The notes beneath the pieces were generated by a model, which saw only the letters and a list, made by a program, of their open reading frames with translations, was not told where the DNA came from and searched no databases. 35,869 bases of DNA from Rhodospirillales bacterium. Its GTDB lineage: Bacteria; Pseudomonadota; Alphaproteobacteria; Rhodospirillales; Casp-alpha2. The first letter of the stretch is position 1. Every line of letters begins with the position of its first letter. Positions 2 through 33,538 of the stretch are shown piece after piece. The stretch is taken from positions 1 to 35,869 of the forward strand of contig JABMOY010000081.1 in assembly GCA_013203955.1 (NCBI GenBank). The letters are read 5' to 3'. The position numbers were made by a program, and so were the translations under genes.

Positions 2-1186
2 TACTCGGGCGTGCGCGGCATTACCGACCTGATCGTCAACCCCGGCATCATGAATCTCGACTTTGCCGACGTGCGTTCGGCGATGAGCCAGATGGGCAAG
101 GCGATGATGGGCACCGGCGAGGCCAAAGGCGAACGCCGGGCGCTTGATGCCGCGGAAGCCGCAATCGCCAACCCGCTGTTGGATGAAATGTCGATGAAGG
201 GGGCCAATGGCGTTCTCATCAACATCACCGGCGGTATGGATATCACCTTGTTTGAAGTCGACGAGGCGGCGAACCGGATTCGCGCCGAAGTCGATGAAGA
301 CGCCTACATCATTGTCGGTTCAGCCTTCGATTCTTCAATGGATGGACTTATGCGGGTTTCCGTCGTTGCCACCGGCATCGACGCCAGTGCTCAGCAAATG
401 CCGCTGCCGACGATGCTGCATCTTGCCGAGCAGCTCGAACAAACGAAGGACTACCGCTCGGTTACTAAAATTGAGGCCGAGGTAGAAGCCGAAGCAGCCC
501 CCGAACCCGTCATGGAAGCCGATCCTGAGCCTGTGTCTGAATTTGAACCCGAACCCGAATTGGAAACCGAAACGTCGGTCGAATCTGATGCCGAGGAGGA
601 AGAGGCCCAGATTGAGTCACAGATAAGCGACTCGACGGATGAGGCTCAAGCCGAATCGGTGGCCGAATCGGCTCAGAAAATGGAAACAGAAGCACCTCCG
701 CCCGCTATGCCGTCTGTAGGCGCAACGGACGCCTTTATCCCGCCGGTGGCGGCAACGGCCGGTGACGCGGAGGATGTCGCTGGCTCGGAACCCGTTGCTG
801 AAATTGCCGAGGATTCCTCTGAATCCAATATAGAGACGCAAGCCGAGCCCGACGTGGCGGCCCCGCGGAAGGGTATGAGCCTTTTCGAACGGGTCACTGG
901 CGGCAGCCGGACGCCCTTCGGTAAAAAGACACCAGCGCCTGTTGAATCCCTGCCCGAATCACCAGAAGTAACGGAAAATAAAGAACTTTCTTCTACAGAA
1001 GAGGTGATTGAGCCGAAGCCGGAGGAGGCTCAACCCGATAATGCCACGACCCTTGATGAGGTGGCGGAGTCGGTTGAGGAAGAAACTCAGCTTGGCGGAA
1101 TGGATCCTGAGGACCGGATAACGACCAGCGAAAGCGACGAAGATCTGCTCGATATTCCGGCTTTTCTCCGCCGCCAAGCGAACTGA
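2..1186 (+). CDS. ftsZ: Cell division protein FtsZ, C-terminal part (5' end outside window)
   Basis: FtsZ is the tubulin-like GTPase that forms the cytokinetic ring. Only the C-terminal 394 residues are in the window; the GTP-binding N-terminal domain lies upstream. The reading frame is open from base 2 and begins inside the family block around [17 protein letters not shown], followed by [10 protein letters not shown] and the conserved [20 protein letters not shown] stretch of the FtsZ C-terminal domain. From about nt 480 to 1140 there is a long, Glu/Pro/Ala-rich acidic linker of roughly 220 residues, expected to be disordered. The protein ends in [13 protein letters not shown], the alphaproteobacterial conserved tail that binds FtsA and other partners. 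lpxC follows about 190 bases downstream, as in other alphaproteobacterial division clusters. The stop codon lies in a 13-bp tandem duplication. Identity is near certain. Confidence 0.97.
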
Positions 1187-19213: not shown

Positions 19214-20191
19214 ATGAGCTTCAAGAAACTTCTCGCCGCATCCGCGGCTGTCGCAGGCCTGACCTTGGCCGTCGGCGTGAGCGGCAATGCCAGCGCCGCT
19301 GAATTCATCACCATCGGCACCGGCGGTGTCACCGGCGTTTACTACCCGACCGGCGGCGCCATTTGCCGTCTCGTCAACAAGGGCCGGAAAAAGCATGGCG
19401 TGCGCTGCTCCGTGGAATCCACGGGCGGTTCCGTTTACAACATCAACACCATCCGCGCCGGCGAGCTGGACATGGGCGTCGCCCAATCAGATTGGCAGTA
19501 TCATGCCTACAACGGGACGGCCAAGTTCAAGGACCAAGGTCCCTTCAAGGAACTCCGGGCCGTGTTCTCGGTCCATGCGGAACCCGTGACCATCGTCGCG
19601 CGCAAGGATTCCGGCATTAAGACCGTCGCCGATCTGGTCGGCAAGCGGGTCAACATCGGCAATCCCGGTTCCGGCACGGAAGCCACCTGGAACGTCATGT
19701 GGAGCGCCATGGGCAAAACCAACAAGGACCTCAAACTGGTCGCTCAGATGAAATCGGCCGAAACGCCGGGTGCGCTTTGCGACAACAAGATCGACGCTTT
19801 CTTCTGGCTGGTCGGCATGCCGAACTCGCTGAACAAAGAAGCGGCGACGACCTGCGATGCCGTGTTCGCTTCCGTTACCGGCCCCGCCGTTGACGGGCTG
19901 GTGAAGAAAAACCCGTTCTATCGTTATGCGAAGATTCCGGGTGGCATGTACCGGGGCAATCCGAACGACATTCCGACCTTTGGTGTCGGCGCGACGTTCG
20001 TCAGTTCCACCAAAGCGCCTGCCAGCACCGTCTATCAGGTGGTCAAGGCCGTGTTCGATAACTTCGCTGCGTTCAAGAAGTTTCATCCGGCCTTTGCTAA
20101 CCTGAAAGAGAAAGAGATGATCAAAGATGCTCTTTCCGCGCCTTTGCATGATGGCGCCATAAAGTACTACAAAGAAAAAGGCTGGATGTAA
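19214..20191 (+). CDS. TRAP transporter TAXI-family solute-binding protein (first copy)
   Basis: This is the periplasmic receptor of a TRAP-TAXI importer. The 325-residue product has a cleavable signal peptide (Lys-rich start, hydrophobic core, NASA-A cut near residue 29) and then the TAXI domain, starting [20 protein letters not shown]. Other family blocks are [43 protein letters not shown] and [19 protein letters not shown]. Four Cys residues (in AICRL, GVRCS, GALCD and TTCDA) recur in the second copy and could form disulfides. It has an excellent AAGGAGGA ribosome site and is followed by a strong terminator before the permease gene. The ligand is unknown; characterised TAXI proteins have been linked to glutamate and other small acids. 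Confidence 0.95.
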
Positions 20192-20199
20192 TTCAGCCA

Positions 20200-20237
20200 A
20201 AGGCGGGGAAGCGAAGGCTTCCCCGCCTTACTTTTTT
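20200..20237 (+). terminator. Strong hairpin terminator/attenuator between receptor and permease genes
   Basis: A perfect 13-bp stem (AAGGCGGGGAAGC with GCTTCCCCGCCTT) closes a GAAG loop and is followed by AC and six T residues. It begins 8 bases after the receptor stop codon. Such an element would release most transcripts after the receptor gene, giving more receptor than permease. Confidence 0.88.
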
Positions 20238-20294
20238 GAATTTTGAATACTCAATTTTCGAATTAATGGGTCTGAAAGCCCGGGGGAGAAAAAT

Positions 20295-22883
20295 ATGAGC
20301 GAGAAAACCGCCGCGGCCGATGACATAGACCAAAAAGCACTGGATGACCTGATCGCCGAGGCCGATACCGGCGGGCGGGTGCCGAGCGGGGCTTCGGCTA
20401 AGGTTCTCTGGTATGTTCCACTGACGTGGGCTTTGTTCCAGCTTTGGTACGCTTCGCCGCTTCCGTTCCTAGTCGGGGCCGGCATTTTCAATTCGACCGA
20501 AGCGCGCTCCATTCATTTGGCTTTTGCCGTATTCTTGGCTTTCCTGGCGTTTCCGGCGTTGAAACGCTCGCCTCGCGATTACATCCCAATTCAGGACTGG
20601 GCGCTGGCTTTGATCGGCGCGCTGGCTACCGGCTATATCTTCATTTTATTCCGGGAAATTTCGGACCGCCCCGGTCTGCCGACGCAAATGGATCTGGTGG
20701 CTTCGGTCATCGGCATTGGCATTATTCTTGAAGCCACCCGCCGCGCCCTGGGCCCGCCCTTGATGGTGGTGGCGGCGGTCTTTCTCACTTACACGTTCGC
20801 CGGCCCCTGGATGCCCGAAATGATCGCCCACCAAGGGGCCAGCCTTAACAAAGGCATGTCGCATTACTACCTGACCACGGAAGGCGTCTTCGGCATTGCG
20901 CTGGGGGTTTCGACGTCCATGGTGTTTTTGTTCGTATTGTTCGGCTCGTTGCTGGAAAAAGCAGGCGCCGGCAACTATTTCATCCGCGTCGCCTTCGCCT
21001 ATATGGGCCATATGCGGGGCGGTCCGGCGAAAGCCGCCGTGGTGGCGTCAGGGATGACGGGGCTGGTGTCCGGGTCCGCCATCGCCAACGTTGTCACCAC
21101 CGGCACCTTTACCATTCCGCTGATGCGCAAAGTCGGCTTTTCGGCGGAAAAGGCTGGCGCCGTTGAGGTGGCGGCGTCCACCAACGGTCAATTAACGCCG
21201 CCGATCATGGGGGCGGTCGCATTTCTGATGGTCGAATATGTTGGCATCACGTATGTCGAGGTCATCAAACACGCTGCTTTGCCGGCGCTGATTTCTTATA
21301 TGGCGCTGGTTTATATCGTCCATTTGGAGTCCCTAAAGGCCGACCTGAAGGGGCTTCCCCGGCGCAGCCCGCCAAATTTCTTGCGCGGCCTGACCAGCTT
21401 TTTTATCACACTCCTCGGTCTTTCCATCCTGACGGTGGTTGTCTATTACGGACTGGGTTGGATGAAAGGCGCCTTCGGCGCTGCGACGCCGTGGATCGCG
21501 TCCGTCCTTTTGGCCATGTCTTATGCGGGGCTTGTGAAGTATTCCGTGGGCGTGCCAGAGTTGGATACTTCCCTGGACATTGTCGAACTACCCGAAGCCC
21601 GCCCGACAGTGAGGGCCGGGCTTTATTATCTCCTGCCAGTGGTGGTTCTGATCTGGTGCCTGACCGTGGAACGGCTGTCGCCGGGTCTGTCGGCTTTTTG
21701 GGCGACCGTGTTCATGCTGTTCGTGCTGTTGACCCAGCGGTCGTTGAAGGCGTATTTGCGCAAGACCGGCGAAGACATTGGCCAATGCCTTCTTGAAGGC
21801 GCCAAGGACATGTTGGAAGGGTTGGTCAGCGGCGCCCGCAATATGATCGGCATCGGCGTCGCCACGGCGGCGGCCGGTATCGTCGTCGGCACCATAACGC
21901 TCACCGGCGTCGGCTTGGTGATGGCCGAATTCGTCGAGTTCGTTTCCGGCGGGCAAGTCCTGATCATGCTGATCTTTACCGCCGTCCTCAGCCTGATTTT
22001 GGGAATGGGGCTGCCGACCACGGCCAACTACATCGTCGTTTCCAGTCTGATGGCACCGGTCATCGTCACCGTCGGTGCGCAAAGCGGGCTGATCGTGCCG
22101 TTGATTGCCGTTCACATGTTCGTTTTCTACTTCGGCATTCTGGCCGATGATACGCCACCTGTGGCCTTGGCGGCTTTTGCCGCCGCCGCGATCTCGAAAG
22201 GCGATCCCATCAAAACGGGTATCCAGGGATTCATGTACGACATCCGGACCGCGATCCTGCCGTTTCTGTTCATCTTCAACACCGAGCTGCTGATGATCGG
22301 AATCGAATCATGGTACCATCTGTTGATTACGATCGTTACCGCCGTCATCGCCATGTTGCTATTCGCGGCGGGAACCCAAGGGTACTTCCTGGTCAAAAGC
22401 CGGCTTTGGGAATCCATCGCCTTGATCCTTGTCGCCTTCACCATGTTTAGGCCTGGTTTTTGGATGGATCAATTAACGCCTGAGTTGCAATCCATCCCGG
22501 CAGCCGGGATTTACGATGTCGCCGGAAAGATGCCGGCCAGTTCCCAGATCAGGATCCAGGTCAAGGGTGAGAATGTGGAGGGGCGCTTGATTGACAAGGT
22601 CGTCATGCTTCCCATGGGGCCAAAGGCGGCGGGCAAAGAAAGGCTGGCTGCGACCGGTCTTGAGCTGCGGTTTGAAAAGGGCAAAACCTTTGTCGATAAT
22701 GTCGTCTTCGGCAGCACCGCCGCCCGCCAGCAGATCGATTTCGATATGGAAATCGCCAGCATTCAAATTAAAGCCGACCGGCCGCCGAAGCAGCTATTTT
22801 ACATACCTGCCCTGCTGCTCCTCGGATTTATCGTTCTTCTGCAACGCCGGCGCCAGCCTAGCCCGGCTTTGGCAACGGCATAA
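20295..22883 (+). CDS. TRAP transporter fused permease (4TM/12TM, DctQM type)
   Basis: The 862-residue inner-membrane protein joins the small (DctQ, 4 helices) and large (DctM, 12 helices) TRAP subunits in one chain, the usual form for TAXI systems. After a charged N-terminus, hydrophobic helices run from about residue 35 to 730. DctM signature regions include GMTGLVSGSAIANVVTTGTF, STNGQLTPPIMGAVAF and GMGLPTTANYIVVSSLMAP, which line the transport path. A soluble C-terminal part (about 740-835, with RIQVKGENVEGRLIDKVVML) followed by a last helix looks like the DUF3394 extension of this fusion family. A GGGGGAG ribosome site precedes ATG 20295. The UspA gene follows 13 bases later. Confidence 0.95.
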   Translation: MSEKTAAADDIDQKALDDLIAEADTGGRVPSGASAKVLWYVPLTWALFQLWYASPLPFLVGAGIFNSTEARSIHLAFAVFLAFLAFPALKRSPRDYIPIQDWALALIGALATGYIFILFREISDRPGLPTQMDLVASVIGIGIILEATRRALGPPLMVVAAVFLTYTFAGPWMPEMIAHQGASLNKGMSHYYLTTEGVFGIALGVSTSMVFLFVLFGSLLEKAGAGNYFIRVAFAYMGHMRGGPAKAAVVASGMTGLVSGSAIANVVTTGTFTIPLMRKVGFSAEKAGAVEVAASTNGQLTPPIMGAVAFLMVEYVGITYVEVIKHAALPALISYMALVYIVHLESLKADLKGLPRRSPPNFLRGLTSFFITLLGLSILTVVVYYGLGWMKGAFGAATPWIASVLLAMSYAGLVKYSVGVPELDTSLDIVELPEARPTVRAGLYYLLPVVVLIWCLTVERLSPGLSAFWATVFMLFVLLTQRSLKAYLRKTGEDIGQCLLEGAKDMLEGLVSGARNMIGIGVATAAAGIVVGTITLTGVGLVMAEFVEFVSGGQVLIMLIFTAVLSLILGMGLPTTANYIVVSSLMAPVIVTVGAQSGLIVPLIAVHMFVFYFGILADDTPPVALAAFAAAAISKGDPIKTGIQGFMYDIRTAILPFLFIFNTELLMIGIESWYHLLITIVTAVIAMLLFAAGTQGYFLVKSRLWESIALILVAFTMFRPGFWMDQLTPELQSIPAAGIYDVAGKMPASSQIRIQVKGENVEGRLIDKVVMLPMGPKAAGKERLAATGLELRFEKGKTFVDNVVFGSTAARQQIDFDMEIASIQIKADRPPKQLFYIPALLLLGFIVLLQRRRQPSPALATA

Positions 22884-22896
22884 AGGAATAGCTGCC

Positions 22897-23325
22897 ATGT
22901 ATAAAAACATTCTGCTTTCCGTTGACCTTAATGATGAAAGTTCATGGAAAAAGGCCCTGCCCACCGCCGTGGGCTTGTGCCAGACATCCGACGCCAGCCT
23001 TCGTGTGCTGACCGTGGTTCCCGATTTCGGGATGAGCATCGTCAATCAATATTTCCCCGAAGGTTTCGAAAAAGAAATGGCGGGCAAGGTGATGGATACC
23101 TTAAAGGCGTTCGTTAAGGACAATGTCCCCGAAGGGGTCGAAGTTCAGCACATCGTCGGCGAAGGAACCATCTACGAGGTCATCTTGAAAATGTCCGAGG
23201 AAACCAAGGCGGACCTTATCGTCATGGCGTCTCATCGCCCGGAATTGAAGGATTACCTTCTTGGCCCCAATGCCGCCCGCGTTGTCCGCCACGCTAATTG
23301 TTCTGTTCTGGTGGTTCGCGATTAG
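22897..23325 (+). CDS. Universal stress protein (UspA family)
   Basis: The 142-residue cytoplasmic protein has the UspA Rossmann-like fold: N-terminal strand MYKNILLSVDLND, DASLRVLTVVP, HIVGEGTIYEVILKMSEE and KADLIVMASHRP, ending in GPNAARVVRHANCSVLVVRD. The usual ATP motif Gly-X2-Gly reads Ser-His-Arg-Pro here (about 112-115), so ATP binding is doubtful, though the GPNAARVV part is kept. ATG 22897 is preceded by AAAGGA and lies 13 bases after the permease stop; the longer frame through the permease gene is not used. In the ectoine TRAP system TeaABC, the Usp protein TeaD binds nucleotide and regulates transport; a similar role is plausible here from gene order. Confidence 0.92.
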   Translation: MYKNILLSVDLNDESSWKKALPTAVGLCQTSDASLRVLTVVPDFGMSIVNQYFPEGFEKEMAGKVMDTLKAFVKDNVPEGVEVQHIVGEGTIYEVILKMSEETKADLIVMASHRPELKDYLLGPNAARVVRHANCSVLVVRD

Positions 23326-23423
23326 CCTAGGAAACACTTGCTCTTTCGGCATTCTCGATTGCCGGGGCTACACTTGGTAACCATTTCGTAGTAGAAACGG
23401 TCCTGAAGGCAGGTGTTGAACCT

Positions 23424-24449
23424 TTGAGAAACATTATTATCAGTGGACTCGTGGCCTTTGTCGTCGGCGTCTTCGTCGGTGCCACGGTTTTGTCGCCTGA
23501 GGTCAGGGTGCTGAAGCAGGCCGACCGGGGCGGTAATTCGACAACCGCATCCGGCGATATCGTCACCATCGGCACCGGTGGGGTGACCGGCGTTTATTAT
23601 CCCGCCGGCGGTGCGATTTGCCTTCTTGTCAACAAAGGACGGAAAGGCCATGGCGTGCGCTGCACGGTCGAAAGCACGGCTGGTTCCGTTGCTAACCTGA
23701 ACAAAATCCGCTCCGGCGATTTGGATTTCGGCATTGCCCAGTCCGATTGGCAGTCCCACAGTTTTAAGGGGACCTCTAGGTTTAAGGATGAGGGCCCGTT
23801 CAAGGAACTGAGATCTGTTTTTTCCCTCCACTCCGAGCCCTTCACCGTTGTCGCGCGCGCCGATGCGGGGATCGCGGTCATTAGCGACTTAAAAGGCAAA
23901 CGGGTGAATATCGGCAACCCCGGTTCCGGCCAACGGGGAACCATGGAAGTTCTGATGAAAGCCATGGGCTGGACTAAGGACAGTTTCCGCGAAGTTTTCG
24001 AACTGAAATCCAGGGATCAATCTGTGGCGCTTTGCGCTGGGCGGATCGACGCCATGGTCTTTACCGTCGGCCACCCGTCGCAATCGATCAAGGAAGCGAC
24101 GACATCGTGTGACAGTGTCCTGGTTAATGTCACGGGTCCGGCCATTGACGGACTGGTCAAGGAGAACGACTACTATAGCTACGCCACTATTCCCGCCGGC
24201 ATGTACCGGGGAACCCCCGGCGACACCAAAACTTTCGGGGTCGGGGCGACGCTTGTGACGTCCGCAGGCGCGCCTATTGAGGCGGTTTACGCCATGGTCA
24301 AATCGGTGTTTGACGGCTTCGATGCCTTCAAAACGCTGCACCCGGCGTTCAAGAACCTAAATAAAGAGGACATGATAAAAAACGGACTTTCGGCGCCGCT
24401 GCATCCGGGCGCGGTGAAATACTACAAGGAAGCCGGATTGTTGAAGTAA
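23424..24449 (+). CDS. Second TAXI-family binding protein, N-terminally anchored
   Basis: This 341-residue protein is a close paralogue of the receptor at 19214: well over half of the aligned residues match by eye, including [48 protein letters not shown] and FGVGAT, and all four Cys positions. The N-terminus differs: it starts MRNIIISGLVAFVVGVFVGA, a single hydrophobic helix with no clear signal-peptidase site, then a short linker to the domain at about residue 49. It is therefore probably a periplasm-facing, membrane-tethered receptor. The start is TTG 23424 with AAGGCAGG upstream. It lies 98 bases after the usp gene and most likely works with the same permease, as a second receptor or a ligand sensor. 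Confidence 0.92.
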   Translation: MRNIIISGLVAFVVGVFVGATVLSPEVRVLKQADRGGNSTTASGDIVTIGTGGVTGVYYPAGGAICLLVNKGRKGHGVRCTVESTAGSVANLNKIRSGDLDFGIAQSDWQSHSFKGTSRFKDEGPFKELRSVFSLHSEPFTVVARADAGIAVISDLKGKRVNIGNPGSGQRGTMEVLMKAMGWTKDSFREVFELKSRDQSVALCAGRIDAMVFTVGHPSQSIKEATTSCDSVLVNVTGPAIDGLVKENDYYSYATIPAGMYRGTPGDTKTFGVGATLVTSAGAPIEAVYAMVKSVFDGFDAFKTLHPAFKNLNKEDMIKNGLSAPLHPGAVKYYKEAGLLK

Positions 24450-26315: not shown

Positions 26316-27713
26316 TTAAGGAAGGCTCAGTTCCCGCCAAATCGTATAGTCCTTACGGAACGCGCTCAGTGATTTCCAGACACGCTTGAAATCACGGTCC
26401 GATTTTGCCTCTTCCTTGGCGACGACGACCCATGCTTTGTTCAAAGCTTCAAGGATTTCACCGGGCCAGCGCCGGATGGCGACGCCCTTGGATTGCAGTT
26501 CCTTAAGCGCTTTGAATTGGCCGGCTTCTCCTTCCGCCAGGCCGAAGCGAATATTATCGCCGCAGACGGCTTCGATCTGGGCCTTGGCCGACACCGACAG
26601 GGCTTCCCATTTTTTAAGGTTGATCATCAGCTCGAAAAGCGTCGACGGCTGATGCCAGCCGGGAAAATAATAATTTTTCACCATCTGGTGCAGGCCCAGC
26701 TTTATATCGATGGCGGGCATGGAAAATTCCGCTGCATCGATAGCCCCGGATTCAAAGGCGACGAAAATATCGCCGGACGTAAGCTGGGTCGTGACAACCC
26801 CCATCTTTTGCATGACCTTGGCGCCGAGCCCGAAAAACCGCATTTTCAGCCCCTTCAGATCCTCGACGGTGCGGATGCGCTTGCGAAACCAGCCTGATGC
26901 CTCGGGCGCGATCAACCCGCAGAAGACACTGTGAATGCCGTTGGCGTGGTAAATTTCGTCAAAAAGCTCCTTGCCGCCGCCGAAGTAAATCCAGGCCAGG
27001 AACTCCTTAGCCGATGGCCCAAAAGGCACGGCGGCGAAAAGTTGCAGCGCCGGCACTTTGTTGCCCCAAAAGGCCGGCGAGGAAAAGGCGGCGTCAATGG
27101 CCCCGGCGCGCACAGCGTCGAACATTTCCAAAGGCGGCACCAAGGCGCCGGGCTCAAAAAACTTAATTTCCAGAGTTCCCGCCGAAACACGCCAAATATC
27201 CCGGTCCAACTTCTTCGCCATCGTCCCCAGTTGCGGCAAGGTGCTGGAATAGGCGCTGGCCATTTTCCAATGCAGCGCCGACGGCTCAGCCGGTGGCGTT
27301 TCTTTAACCTGTACCGGGGCGGGTATGGGCGCTGGCGCGGGTTTTGGGATTTCTTCGGCAGAAGCAATAGGTTCCGGTTTTAGAGCTTTATTCGAGGCCG
27401 GATTGGTCGTCTTTTTGGGTGTTTCCTTAGGTTTTGCCCCAGGTTTTGCTTCGCCCGTTTTCTTCTGTGTATCGGGGGATTCGGATTTCTCCGGCTGACT
27501 TTCAGCCGCATCCCCGTTCGTTTTCCCCCCATCGGTCTCGGGTGTTTCGGGGGCAGGCGGGGCCTTTACGGCGGGCCGGGCCGCTATCTTGATCGGTTGG
27601 ATATTGGCGGTGTTTTGCTTGTTGGCTTGGCCCAGCCGGGGAGCGACGCCGGTCGCGCCGACAACGACGCCGACAACGATGCCTATGACGATGCCGATGA
27701 TCGCGTTGCGCAC
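26316..27713 (-). CDS. TRAP transporter DctP-type binding protein, TakP-like, on an anchored linker
   Basis: The 465-residue product has three parts. Residues 1-27 form a hydrophobic anchor, MRNAIIGIVIGIVVGVVVGA, without a clear cleavage site. Residues about 30-146 are a low-complexity Pro/Glu/Lys/Ala linker, predicted disordered and TonB-like in composition. From about 147 the DctP domain begins (LHWKMASAYSSTLPQLG), with GLKMRFFGLGAKVMQKMG, SGDIFVAFESGAIDAAEFSMP and YYFPGWHQPSTLFELMIN, a pattern close to TakP-type receptors for alpha-keto or hydroxy acids. No DctQ or DctM gene is near, so it is an orphan receptor here. The start is GTG 27713 with AGGGGGAA upstream, 24 bases after the tRNA-Pro 3' end on the same strand. 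Confidence 0.88.
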   Translation of the reverse strand: MRNAIIGIVIGIVVGVVVGATGVAPRLGQANKQNTANIQPIKIAARPAVKAPPAPETPETDGGKTNGDAAESQPEKSESPDTQKKTGEAKPGAKPKETPKKTTNPASNKALKPEPIASAEEIPKPAPAPIPAPVQVKETPPAEPSALHWKMASAYSSTLPQLGTMAKKLDRDIWRVSAGTLEIKFFEPGALVPPLEMFDAVRAGAIDAAFSSPAFWGNKVPALQLFAAVPFGPSAKEFLAWIYFGGGKELFDEIYHANGIHSVFCGLIAPEASGWFRKRIRTVEDLKGLKMRFFGLGAKVMQKMGVVTTQLTSGDIFVAFESGAIDAAEFSMPAIDIKLGLHQMVKNYYFPGWHQPSTLFELMINLKKWEALSVSAKAQIEAVCGDNIRFGLAEGEAGQFKALKELQSKGVAIRRWPGEILEALNKAWVVVAKEEAKSDRDFKRVWKSLSAFRKDYTIWRELSLP

Positions 27714-30491: not shown

Positions 30492-31370
30492 ATGACGCCT
30501 GCGTCCAAATCCAGCACCAGTTTTCAGGCTCTGATCCTGAAACTTCAGGCCTTTTGGGCGGATAAGGGCTGCGCCATCCTGCAGCCCTATGACGTGGAAG
30601 TCGGCGCCGGCACCTTTCACCCGGCAACGGCGCTCCGGGCCTTGGGGCCAGCGCCTTGGAAAGCCGCCTACGTGCAGCCGTGCCGACGCCCTACCGACGG
30701 GCGTTACGGCGAAAACCCCAACCGCTTGCAGCACTATTACCAGTTCCAGGTGATCCTGAAGCCGTCGCCCGACGACGTACAGGCGCTTTACCTGGAAAGC
30801 CTGGGCGCGCTTGGCGTCGATCCCGGCCTGCATGATATCCGTTTTGTAGAGGACGACTGGGAAAGCCCGACCCTGGGCGCCGCGGGCCTGGGGTGGGAAG
30901 TCTGGTGCGACGGCATGGAAGTCACCCAATTCACCTATTTCCAGCAAGTCGGCGGCATCGATTGCGACCCCGTCTCGGTGGAACTGACCTATGGGCTGGA
31001 ACGCCTGGTTATGTATATCCAAGGGGTCGAAAACGTCTTCGACATCGATTGGAACGGAGAAGGAGTCACCTACCGCGATGTCTTCCTGCAATCGGAGCAG
31101 GAATTTTCAAAATACAATTTCGAAATTGCCGATGTGACTATGCTGAAAGGCCACTTCAAGGACGCCGAGGCCGAAAGCGGGCGCGCATTAGAGGCTGACC
31201 TAGCGCTGCCCGCGTATGATCAATGCCTGAAAGCCAGTCATTTGTTCAACTTGCTCGATGCCCGGGGTGCTATTTCGGCGACGGAACGCGCCACCTATAT
31301 CGGACGCGTGCGCGCACTGGCCAAGGCCGCGTGTGAGATGTGGCGGGATTCGCAAGAAGGCGCTGACTAG
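30492..31370 (+). CDS. glyQ: Glycyl-tRNA synthetase alpha subunit
   Basis: The alpha subunit holds the class II catalytic core of the bacterial alpha2beta2 glycyl-tRNA synthetase. The 292-residue product is full length and carries the highly conserved [22 protein letters not shown] start (shown in part), motif 2 region [53 protein letters not shown] and motif 3 in [15 protein letters not shown]. It ends 2 bases before the glyS start, so alpha and beta are translated together. A candidate promoter lies just upstream. Confidence 0.98.
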
Positions 31371-31372
31371 TC

Positions 31373-33538
31373 ATGCCTGAACTTTTGTTGGAACTGTTAA
31401 GCGAAGAAATCCCCGCCCGTATGCAGGCGCGTGCGGCGGATGATTTGAAGCGGCTTGTGACCAAAGAGCTGGAAGCAGACGGACTAAAATTTGAAAGCAT
31501 TAAAACCTTTGTTACACCCCGAAGACTGACTTTGGTGATCGAAGGATTGCCAAAAAAGATAGCGGCAAAGTCTGAAGAGAAACGTGGCCCCCGCACCGAT
31601 GCACCCGAACAAGCAATCAAAGGCTTCATGGGCTCGCTGCCCAAGGGCGCTAAGATCAAAAGGCGCGAGACAGAGAAGGGGGAATTTTTCTTTGCTGTGG
31701 TTGAGCAGAAGGAGCAGGACACGGCTCAGTTTATGCCTTTTATTGTAGGAGCCTCGATTTTTAATCTCACTTGGCCGAAATCAATGAAATGGGGGAGCTC
31801 GGACTTAACTTGGGTCAGGCCATTGAGCCGAATTCTCGTAATTTTTGATGGAAAGCTCGTAAAAGGCACGGTTCAGCTTGGCACAAATTATAAAATTCCT
31901 GGTTTGAAGGCTGGCAATCCCCCTGAACCAGGAGAAAAGGAAATTAATTTCTCTTCGGAAACTGTAGGCCACCGTTTTCTTGCTCCCGATTCTTTCAAGG
32001 TGACCGATTTTGCTTACTACAAAAATAAACTGAAGAAAGCCTTTGTTTTAGTTGACCCGAAAGATAGGAGAAAAAAAATCATCCAAGCAGGCAGTAAGCT
32101 TGCTTCCGCTGAAGGTTTTCAGATTCCAATGGAGCCCGCTCTTTTGGATGAGGTCGTGGGTCTTGCTGAATGGCCTATTCTGCTAATGGGTTCCTTCGAT
32201 CCTGAATTCTTAGATCTACCTGAGGAGGTGTTGGAAACGTCGATGCGGAAGCACCAAAAATATTTTGCCGTCAGAAAACCAAGTGCTGATGGAAAAGTAT
32301 CTGAAATTGTTCCGCGCTTTGTTTTTGTCGCCAACACGAAACCCTCGGACGGCGGCAAGACTATCGTCGCCGGTAACGAGCGCGTTCTTCGGGCGCGGCT
32401 GTCGGACGCCAAGTTCTTCTGGGATCAGGACCGCAAGCGAACTCTTGAAAGCAGGGTAGACGACCTTGAAAAGCGGATGTACCACGAGAAGATTGGGACA
32501 ATGGGTCAAAAAGTGCATCGCCTTAATGGTCGCATTATTTTTATGGCGCCTTACTTCCCTGATCTTGATAAAGAGGCTGCAAAAAGGGCAGCGCGCCTTT
32601 GCAAAGCAGATCTTTCAACCGGCATGGTGGCTGAATTTCCGGAACTGCAAGGCATCATGGGTTGTTACTACGCCTTGGCCGACGGCGAAAAACCCGACGT
32701 CGCCACCGCCATCGCCGAACATTATTCGCCGCAGGGGCCGGGCGACGACTGCCCATCGGCGCCGGTTAGCATCGCCGTCGCACTCGCCGACAAGATCGAT
32801 ACACTTACTGGATTTTGGAGAGTAGGAGAACTTCCTACGGGATCGAAAGACCCCTATGCACTTAGGCGAACGGCGTTAGGCATTGTTCGGTTGATAATTG
32901 AAAACAAGTTGCGGATGCCTCTACTGGAGCTTTTCAATGACAGCATGTTGGCCCTTTCACGCGGTATGGCGACAACTGACAAGGAAAGGGAAGAAGTCTC
33001 TAAAGACTTGCTGTCCTTCATCGCCGACCGGCTGAAGGTTCATCTGCGGAAGAAAGGTGTCAAACACGATCATATCGATGCTGTGTTCTTATCTGAATAT
33101 CATGATGATTTGGTTCTTCTTCTTGATCAGGTCGAGGCGTTATCAGATTTTCTTAGTACTGAGAATGGTATGAATCTTCTTACGGCTTATCGGCGGGCTG
33201 CCAATATTTTGAAAATTGAAGAGAAGAAAGACGGGATTTCTTATTCTGAAAAACCTAACCCGGATTTCTTCGTGCAAGACGAAGAACAAGCATTGCAAAA
33301 TGCATTGAACAAGGATGGCTCGCTAGCTCTAAATTTTATTGAGCATTCGAAATTTCGAGAGGGTATGGCTGAGCTCGCAAAACTGCGTGCACCCGTAGAT
33401 GCTTTTTTCGATCATGTCACAGTCAATGTGGAAGATGAGCCAGCTTTGCGGGAAAACCGTTTGAAGTTGTTGTCGGGTATCCGTTCCGCCATGAACGCCG
33501 TCGCCGATTTCTCCAAAATAGAGGGCGGCGATAAATGA
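31373..33538 (+). CDS. glyS: Glycyl-tRNA synthetase beta subunit
   Basis: The beta subunit binds tRNA-Gly and is needed for charging. The 721-residue protein has the usual start MPELLLELLSEEIPARMQ, VTPRRLTLVIEGLP, the ETSMRKHQKYFAV block, NERVLRARLSDAKFFWDQD, an HD-like region around LCKADLSTGMVAEFPELQGI, and the C-terminal anticodon-binding domain (DALALR-like) up to FDHVTVNVEDEPALRENRL. The protein is complete and in frame, but base composition is patchy: long AT-rich stretches alternate with short GC-rich ones typical of the neighbours (see findings). Its TGA overlaps the ppdK ATG (ATGA). Confidence 0.96.
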   Translation: MPELLLELLSEEIPARMQARAADDLKRLVTKELEADGLKFESIKTFVTPRRLTLVIEGLPKKIAAKSEEKRGPRTDAPEQAIKGFMGSLPKGAKIKRRETEKGEFFFAVVEQKEQDTAQFMPFIVGASIFNLTWPKSMKWGSSDLTWVRPLSRILVIFDGKLVKGTVQLGTNYKIPGLKAGNPPEPGEKEINFSSETVGHRFLAPDSFKVTDFAYYKNKLKKAFVLVDPKDRRKKIIQAGSKLASAEGFQIPMEPALLDEVVGLAEWPILLMGSFDPEFLDLPEEVLETSMRKHQKYFAVRKPSADGKVSEIVPRFVFVANTKPSDGGKTIVAGNERVLRARLSDAKFFWDQDRKRTLESRVDDLEKRMYHEKIGTMGQKVHRLNGRIIFMAPYFPDLDKEAAKRAARLCKADLSTGMVAEFPELQGIMGCYYALADGEKPDVATAIAEHYSPQGPGDDCPSAPVSIAVALADKIDTLTGFWRVGELPTGSKDPYALRRTALGIVRLIIENKLRMPLLELFNDSMLALSRGMATTDKEREEVSKDLLSFIADRLKVHLRKKGVKHDHIDAVFLSEYHDDLVLLLDQVEALSDFLSTENGMNLLTAYRRAANILKIEEKKDGISYSEKPNPDFFVQDEEQALQNALNKDGSLALNFIEHSKFREGMAELAKLRAPVDAFFDHVTVNVEDEPALRENRLKLLSGIRSAMNAVADFSKIEGGDK

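Follow-up and report, generated by a model that had tools for sequence, protein, structure and literature searches.

The glyS gene analysed here, which encodes the beta subunit of glycyl-tRNA synthetase (GlyRS), is a mosaic: diverged pieces biased toward AT alternate with native-looking sequence, one of its alleles occurs in two families, and the same pattern is spread among related bacteria. In several genera the GlyRS beta subunit is hypervariable by module, and this is the new part of the present work. The mosaic has very probably arisen from repeated intragenic homologous recombination, which would maintain hypervariable modules in GlyRS beta.

Results

The glyS Locus

The window, i.e., the whole stretch of 35,869 nucleotides that was analysed, is one entire contig (G000:C57) from a 3.1 Mb assembly of 245 contigs with a completeness of 96.21% and a contamination of 7.17%. 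At the contig end lie glyQ, glyS, and the gene for pyruvate phosphate dikinase (ppdK), in this order, and the start of ppdK overlaps the stop codon of glyS:

30492–31370, + strand: glyQ, GlyRS alpha subunit (PF02091, E 3.8e-146), native flank
31373–33538, + strand: glyS, GlyRS beta subunit, the mosaic gene, an open frame of 721 aa
33535–35868, + strand: ppdK, with PPDK_N and PEP-utilizer domains, native flank, truncated by the contig end

The glyS protein belongs to the GlyRS beta family (PF02092), which it matches with 604 bits over nearly the full profile (residues 4–572, model positions 1–535 of 536), and it has a DALR_1 anticodon-binding domain at residues 603–708. Its tRNA contacts, compared with those given in excerpts of PMC9908026, include both the acceptor-stem loop and the anticodon-contact residues: D493, R498, R499, R608, and F679, equated by eye on the alignment with E. 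coli 476, 481, 482, 585, and 652, all fall in columns that are invariant among 29 proteins. The structure model (pLDDT 87.8) has the predicted GlyRS beta fold, and its 13 PDB matches at E ≤ 0.001 are all GlyRS chains (E from 4e-47 to 2e-29), the first being assigned to GlyRS from its name. The fold, as modelled, and the tRNA-contact residues, as aligned, appear intact, and the gene is probably a working GlyRS beta gene. It is present in single copy: with E up to 0.001, its own assembly, which is incomplete, yields one match and no second or silent copy.

Base Composition along glyS

The first-pass annotation had described glyS by eye as an alternation of AT-rich and GC-rich blocks. This description is borne out; the block limits are correct on recount, and the G+C counts given for three 60-base samples (26, 43, and 23) are exact. 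From the 5′ side, GC and GC3 are 0.44 and 0.43 at 31700–32335, 0.62 and 0.75 at 32335–32455, 0.47 and 0.46 at 32460–32600, 0.65 and 0.77 at 32640–32795, 0.47 and 0.47 at 32796–33010, 0.57 and 0.71 at 33015–33060 (14 codons only), 0.42 and 0.38 at 33061–33470, and 0.54 and 0.64 at 33471–33538. For the whole gene, GC3 is 0.496 in glyS, 0.710 in glyQ, and 0.766 in ppdK. Of 90 stop-to-stop ORFs with 250 or more codons, taken from 171 kb of the assembly including the window, only one has a GC3 below that of glyS. There is a local dip in glyQ, with GC 0.46 at 31032–31151.

The variance of GC3 along glyS exceeds that of codon shuffles by a ratio of 2.2 (two runs, p 0.0005 and 0.003), and the flanks have no such excess (glyQ 1.00, ppdK 0.92). 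However, a change-point model with BIC penalty, based on GC3 only, leaves glyS unsplit within one AT-rich segment at 31347–33460, so that support for the internal blocks comes from the variance test together with the comparison with relatives. The shuffle test is unspecific, since other genes of the window pass it too, and for GC3 heterogeneity the window is 27th among 117 glyS rows, some of which come from one genome. Among the other genes are a 3′ fragment of ftsZ (window 11–1186; ratio 3.15, p 0.001), where the heterogeneity is perhaps that of a conserved domain versus a variable linker, and the ORF at 26316–27713, which encodes a DctP-type solute-binding protein and is mildly heterogeneous (ratio 2.01, p 0.014).

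Native Islands and Foreign-Looking Blocks

The gene was compared with six genus members by their agreement at third codon bases, counted only in codons where the amino acid is kept. The measure is independent of protein conservation, and an altered base bias also reduces it. In counts that pool the six relatives, and hence are non-independent, agreement with the genus is 728/1133 (0.64) in glyQ, 1422/2264 (0.63) in ppdK, and 0.27–0.46 in six AT-rich blocks of glyS. The gene is divided as follows:

31373–31462, + strand: codons 1–30, native-looking start; closest to L013, a member of the genus, nt identity 0.86
31508–32002, + strand: codons 46–210, chiefly B2 and the latter part of B1; allele common to L032, L031, and L157
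32003–32335, + strand: codons 211–321, mostly B3, AT-rich; GC3 0.41, no outstanding relative
32336–32455, + strand: codons 322–361, native-looking GC-rich island; GC3 0.75, third bases 113/178 = 0.63
32456–32632, + strand: codons 362–420, start of the HD domain, AT-rich and foreign-looking; third bases 46/146 = 0.32
32633–32794, + strand: codons 421–474, HD core, native-looking GC-rich island; GC3 0.74, third bases 172/262 = 0.66
32795–32884, + strand: codons 475–504, AT-rich, acceptor-stem loop; GC3 0.33, third bases 33/122 = 0.27
32885–33028, + strand: codons 505–552, hypervariable C-terminal HD loop region; close-pair mean identity 0.43
33029–33397, + strand: codons 553–675, AT-rich, end of the HD domain followed by the first part of the anticodon-binding domain and its hypervariable middle; GC3 0.37–0.40
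33398–33535, + strand: codons 676–721, end of glyS, partly native composition; GC3 0.57, third bases 96/184 = 0.52

Judged by their sequence, both GC-rich islands of glyS are native. Agreement is intermediate over codons 1–105 (217/427), 505–552 (58/104), and 676–721; it is 90/195 over codons 106–210, 124/303 over 211–321, 101/252 over 553–615, and 43/117 over 616–675. Over codons 358–420 the amino acid identity with the genus is 0.45, and far pairs in the set average 0.51. Protein conservation is 0.92 over codons 481–504.

The nearest relatives shift along the gene. The genus member L013 is closest at codons 1–30 and again at 436–480, where its nt identity reaches 0.89. Over codons 46–210 the nearest are L032 and L031, together with the genus member L107 up to codon 120, and the allele in question has about 21 additional residues near 168–190 (105 codons versus 84 in L011). 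At codons 211–330 and 361–405 the best relative has an identity of only 0.50–0.70 and 0.49–0.56, respectively, and none is outstanding.

Conflicting Histories of Gene Parts

Trees were made for three glyS blocks, with 36 rows in each set. In the tree of codons 46–210, the window groups with L032, L031, and L157 (98/99), and the AU test rejects a genus clade (p 0.0153). A genus clade is unrejected for codons 211–320 (AU p 0.448) and 421–480 (AU p 0.366), short blocks of this kind giving poor tree resolution, and the end branch of the window at codons 211–320 is 0.92 versus a median of 0.18. In quick trees the window falls inside its genus both for ppdK (29 rows) and for glyQ (27 rows), each with an SH-aLRT of 99. 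The three relatives belong to the genomes G062, G061, and G084. Their contig numbers and positions recur under family f9, while the window is of family f1 in the same order, and the allele is therefore taken as spanning families.

The PHI test, in our own implementation for codon positions 1 and 2 and gap-free columns, gives z −7.7 (p 0.001) for glyS of seven genus members, z −6.9 when the window is left out, and z −16.3 for 12 genomes. It is significant in no set for ppdK (z −0.7 within the genus). For glyQ it gives z +2.8 in six genus members, and a set of ten genomes is significant (z −2.9, p 0.002). Parts of glyS thus differ in history, as seen from codons 46–210 versus glyQ and ppdK and from PHI, and the flanks keep that of the species, both grouping with the genus and having non-significant PHI within it. 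Third bases, nearest relatives, trees, and PHI in this way support the proposal, made from the composition, that glyS has recombined patchily with a diverged and AT-richer counterpart. As a counterpoint, codons 211–420 are without donor among the matches listed: for codons 211–421 the best of these, from 248 genomes of the order, has 59% identity.

A phage or plasmid carrier of the glyS pieces was considered and rejected, as neither search returned a near relative. A scan of viral contigs for close relatives found none of glyS; 15 phage records match it at 27.5–36.3% identity, several of which, being short or very large, were judged to look like host DNA; and 37 plasmid records match it, all below 60%, with 47% for the best of ten listed.

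Hypervariable Modules of GlyRS Beta

Modules were set by the E. coli domain limits in excerpts of PMC8464048, transferred by eye: the second part of B1 (B1b), the C-terminal loop of the HD domain (HD loop), and the middle of the anticodon-binding domain (ABD-mid). In six close pairs, the mean identity is 0.39 in B1b, 0.43 in the HD loop, and 0.65 in ABD-mid, and outside the modules it is 0.86 in B3 and 0.91 in the HD core. For the three pairs within the genus, the module values are 0.30, 0.30, and 0.50; ABD-mid is not variable in L031, L046, and L072 (0.92–0.95). Far pairs, defined by an overall identity below 0.60 (3393 of 5460 pairs), have 0.43 in B1b, 0.35 in the HD loop, and 0.44 in ABD-mid.

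Controls were 205 pairs from outside the clade with equal divergence in B3 and the HD core. In these pairs, whose rows lean on Azospirillum and may include repeat readings of clade genomes, the identities are 0.76, 0.69, and 0.68 (5% points 0.65, 0.60, and 0.53). All six close pairs lie under the 5% point for B1b, five for the HD loop, and three, which are the genus pairs, for ABD-mid. Close genomes accordingly differ about as much as far ones in B1b and the HD loop, and those of the window's genus do so in ABD-mid too. The identity of the window with its genus in B3 is only 0.55, and far pairs usually have 0.57–0.71 there; since the window is less like its genus than far pairs usually are, fast change is possible in this domain.

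Relatives with the Same Pattern

Amino acid identities of glyQ, ppdK, and glyS are 0.97, 0.96, and only 0.76 between L031 and L072, 0.90, 0.93, and 0.68 between L068 and L107, and 0.90, 0.93, and 0.70 between L002 and L013. For L031 and L072 the nt identity is 0.96 in glyQ and 0.97 in ppdK; over glyS codons 106–210 it is 0.56, with third bases at 0.37 versus 0.92–0.95 in the flanks. Divergence by blocks is clearest in this pair and in L031 with L046, where 30-codon windows go from 0.97–1.00 to 0.32–0.60. When all pairs with a glyQ nt identity of at least 0.82 are considered, 11 of 307, part of them belonging outside the window's clade, have at least one tenth of their glyS windows below 0.65, and 240 of 307 have none. 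In genus g7, two pairs are even along glyS.

Within a pair, one member or both are AT-enriched in the diverged blocks: in the six close pairs mean GC3 is 0.59 over 42 diverged bins and 0.85 over 91 retained ones, these bins being non-independent. In the genome G027, two 30-codon bins of glyS have nt identities of 0.48 and 0.39 with L008, and GC3 in these regions goes down to 0.33–0.43, while it is about 0.8 over most of the gene. L008 is low in the same bins when compared with L010 (0.49, 0.44), without an AT shift of its own.

AT-rich stretches in an otherwise GC-rich glyS are also seen in L114 (G020) and L113 (G027), two further genera of the family. The clade with mosaic glyS consists of alphaproteobacteria, part of them marine. 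In G001, G009, G012, G029, G030, G034, and G036, glyS is split or has a contig ending inside it; contig breaks within the glyS of relatives are to be expected if the gene varies inside populations.

Divergence outside glyS

The extent of diverged DNA outside glyS was measured in two genome pairs, in samples that are small parts of their genomes. In the 90,084 bases aligned between G061 and G064, segments with less than 70% identity total 4,364 bp, of which glyS carries 789 and 257 bp, the former being the longest segment of all. The next longest are 532 bp at L230 2224–2755, where there is no ORF of 150 aa (the longest overlapping ORF has 92 aa), and 326 bp in two adjoining segments at L182 896–1221, mostly between two ORFs; the remaining diverged stretches have at most 204 bp. 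The L230 stretch sits between quinone-oxidoreductase-like and Hsp20-like ORFs, named from their translations. In the 14,107 bases aligned between G007 and G008, glyS has stretches of 295, 319, and 368 of 1,844 diverged bp, and there is a diverged stretch of 159 bp in glyQ.

An ORF-level screen of G061 and G064 (59 reciprocal pairs, 53 aligned, 38 passing a 90% window threshold) returned ORFs apparently as mosaic as glyS. These were judged to be wrong-frame, antisense, or cut by contig ends, and the DNA-level control was used instead. In the window itself, three transport-related ORFs at 19214–24449, one an NMT1-like binding protein and the others named TAXI/TRAP from their translations, have 38–73% identity to genus members where matched, which is in the glyS range or lower.

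Alternative Explanations

Consider the case in which reads of related species had been joined inside glyS, at its conserved stretches, during metagenome assembly. The number of contigs (245) and the contamination (7.17%) are in line with such a chimera, and so are the contigs that end in or split glyS in G001, G009, G012, G029, and G034, although true hypervariability in the population would likewise split contigs. The block patterns recur, however, in open frames of separately deposited assemblies, and G027, which is one contig of 3.9 Mb, also has AT-rich diverged glyS blocks, so that assembly chimeras are unlikely as the general cause. The first-pass annotation had named chimerism as an alternative; it is unsupported by these comparisons, and we regard it as very improbable, if less firmly so for the window itself. 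Hardly more probable is fast evolution of glyS without recombination, in which preferred codons ending in G or C are kept only in conserved segments for the sake of translation accuracy. The GC-rich islands do coincide with conserved protein, as had been remarked from the sequence, and GC3 in the window is 0.55 at conserved sites versus 0.41, a difference for which 117 glyS rows have a median of +0.03 and a 95% point of +0.17. Conservation alone is nevertheless insufficient as an explanation: codons 481–504 are conserved like the islands, and yet third-base agreement at 475–504 is 0.27. Moreover, third bases of L031 and L072 agree at 0.37 in glyS against 0.92 or more in the flanks, one allele is common to two families, and the two g7 pairs are even along the gene. 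A single replacement of the whole gene by an AT-rich glyS, followed by restoration of native islands, would fit a gene that is mostly AT-rich and that GC3 segmentation returns as the one segment 31347–33460. Compositional drift would not, however, restore the third bases of the genus in two islands only, and codons 46–210 have close relatives where codons 211–420 have none among the matches listed; we find this course of events improbable.

Recombination without selection, in which a tolerant gene takes up pieces that then drift, is a less remote case, to which we give a minor share of the probability. The modules that are swapped are also the least conserved between far pairs (0.35–0.44), and hence tolerate change. 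Against this stand the glyQ and ppdK flanks, which are hardly touched, and the largest diverged stretch outside glyS in G061 and G064 (532 bp), which lacks an ORF of 150 aa. Control pairs with equal divergence in the core hold B1b at 0.76, so that tolerance alone fails to have this effect elsewhere.

Discussion

With repeated intragenic recombination as the preferred reading, diverged and mostly AT-richer pieces of glyS would replace stretches between retained native sequence, the incoming pieces recombining homologously at conserved stretches. Module swapping would leave glyQ, ppdK, and the HD core in place; relatives from two or more families of the order would exchange B1b and the HD loop, and the genus of the window also ABD-mid. 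The AT bias suggests a circulating pool of alleles that is not adjusted to each host.

We infer that the diversity of the modules is selected. An active-site inhibitor would hardly select for changes in outer modules and a protein binder could; a phage protein or competitor toxin that attaches to the exterior of GlyRS beta is a tentative candidate. An arms race, in which such a protein binds the outer modules and its hosts evade it by exchanging alleles between genera and between families, is a more doubtful proposal. If true, this essential synthetase would resemble a surface antigen in its behaviour.

Genes of tRNA synthetases commonly serve as backbone genes in bacterial trees. In these bacteria, trees based on glyS would mislead, as the gene is a shuffled patchwork. 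One would not expect such a patchwork in a housekeeping gene, and it hints at a natural agent that targets GlyRS. If the diversity is selected, this agent acts on the bacterial type of GlyRS, which is discussed as an antibiotic target in excerpts of PMC9908026, and the modules name the surface to examine. A limited literature search found no report of mosaic or hypervariable glyS. In excerpts of PMC2784778, one row of a table concerns glyS in a Salmonella serotype. Those of PMC9426551 hold phages responsible for the diversity of bacterioplankton; tRNA, ligase, and aminoacyl are words absent from its text.

Among known systems, the bacterial alpha2 beta2 GlyRS beta, exemplified by E. coli GlyS (PDB 7yse, 7eiv), has the same family, domain order, fold, and tRNA contacts. 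The clade described here differs from it in exchanging modules by recombination and in the extra B1 residues of some alleles. Cassette switching, as in vlsE and pilE, goes with silent donor cassettes, and the present assembly, which is incomplete, has a single glyS match. Replacements of hundreds of bases with changes in length also look unlike the target of a diversity-generating retroelement. Whole aminoacyl-tRNA synthetase genes transfer horizontally, for instance with antibiotic resistance. As in such transfer, glyS sequence has been acquired from other lineages; unlike it, only pieces of the gene have moved, native islands are in place, and there is no second copy in the assembly. A phage T4 protein binds the host valyl-tRNA synthetase, which illustrates the principle that a phage can target a host synthetase and is an analogy for the proposed cause only; we know of no T4-like synthetase-binding protein in this system. 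In the penicillin-binding proteins of Neisseria and pneumococcus, essential genes have become mosaic under drug selection, and we know of no drug that selects for mosaic glyS. The likeness to these proteins lies in an essential gene with imported diverged blocks between conserved stretches and with flanks that are little altered, and the difference in that the exchange of glyS spans families and involves several separate modules of a synthetase.
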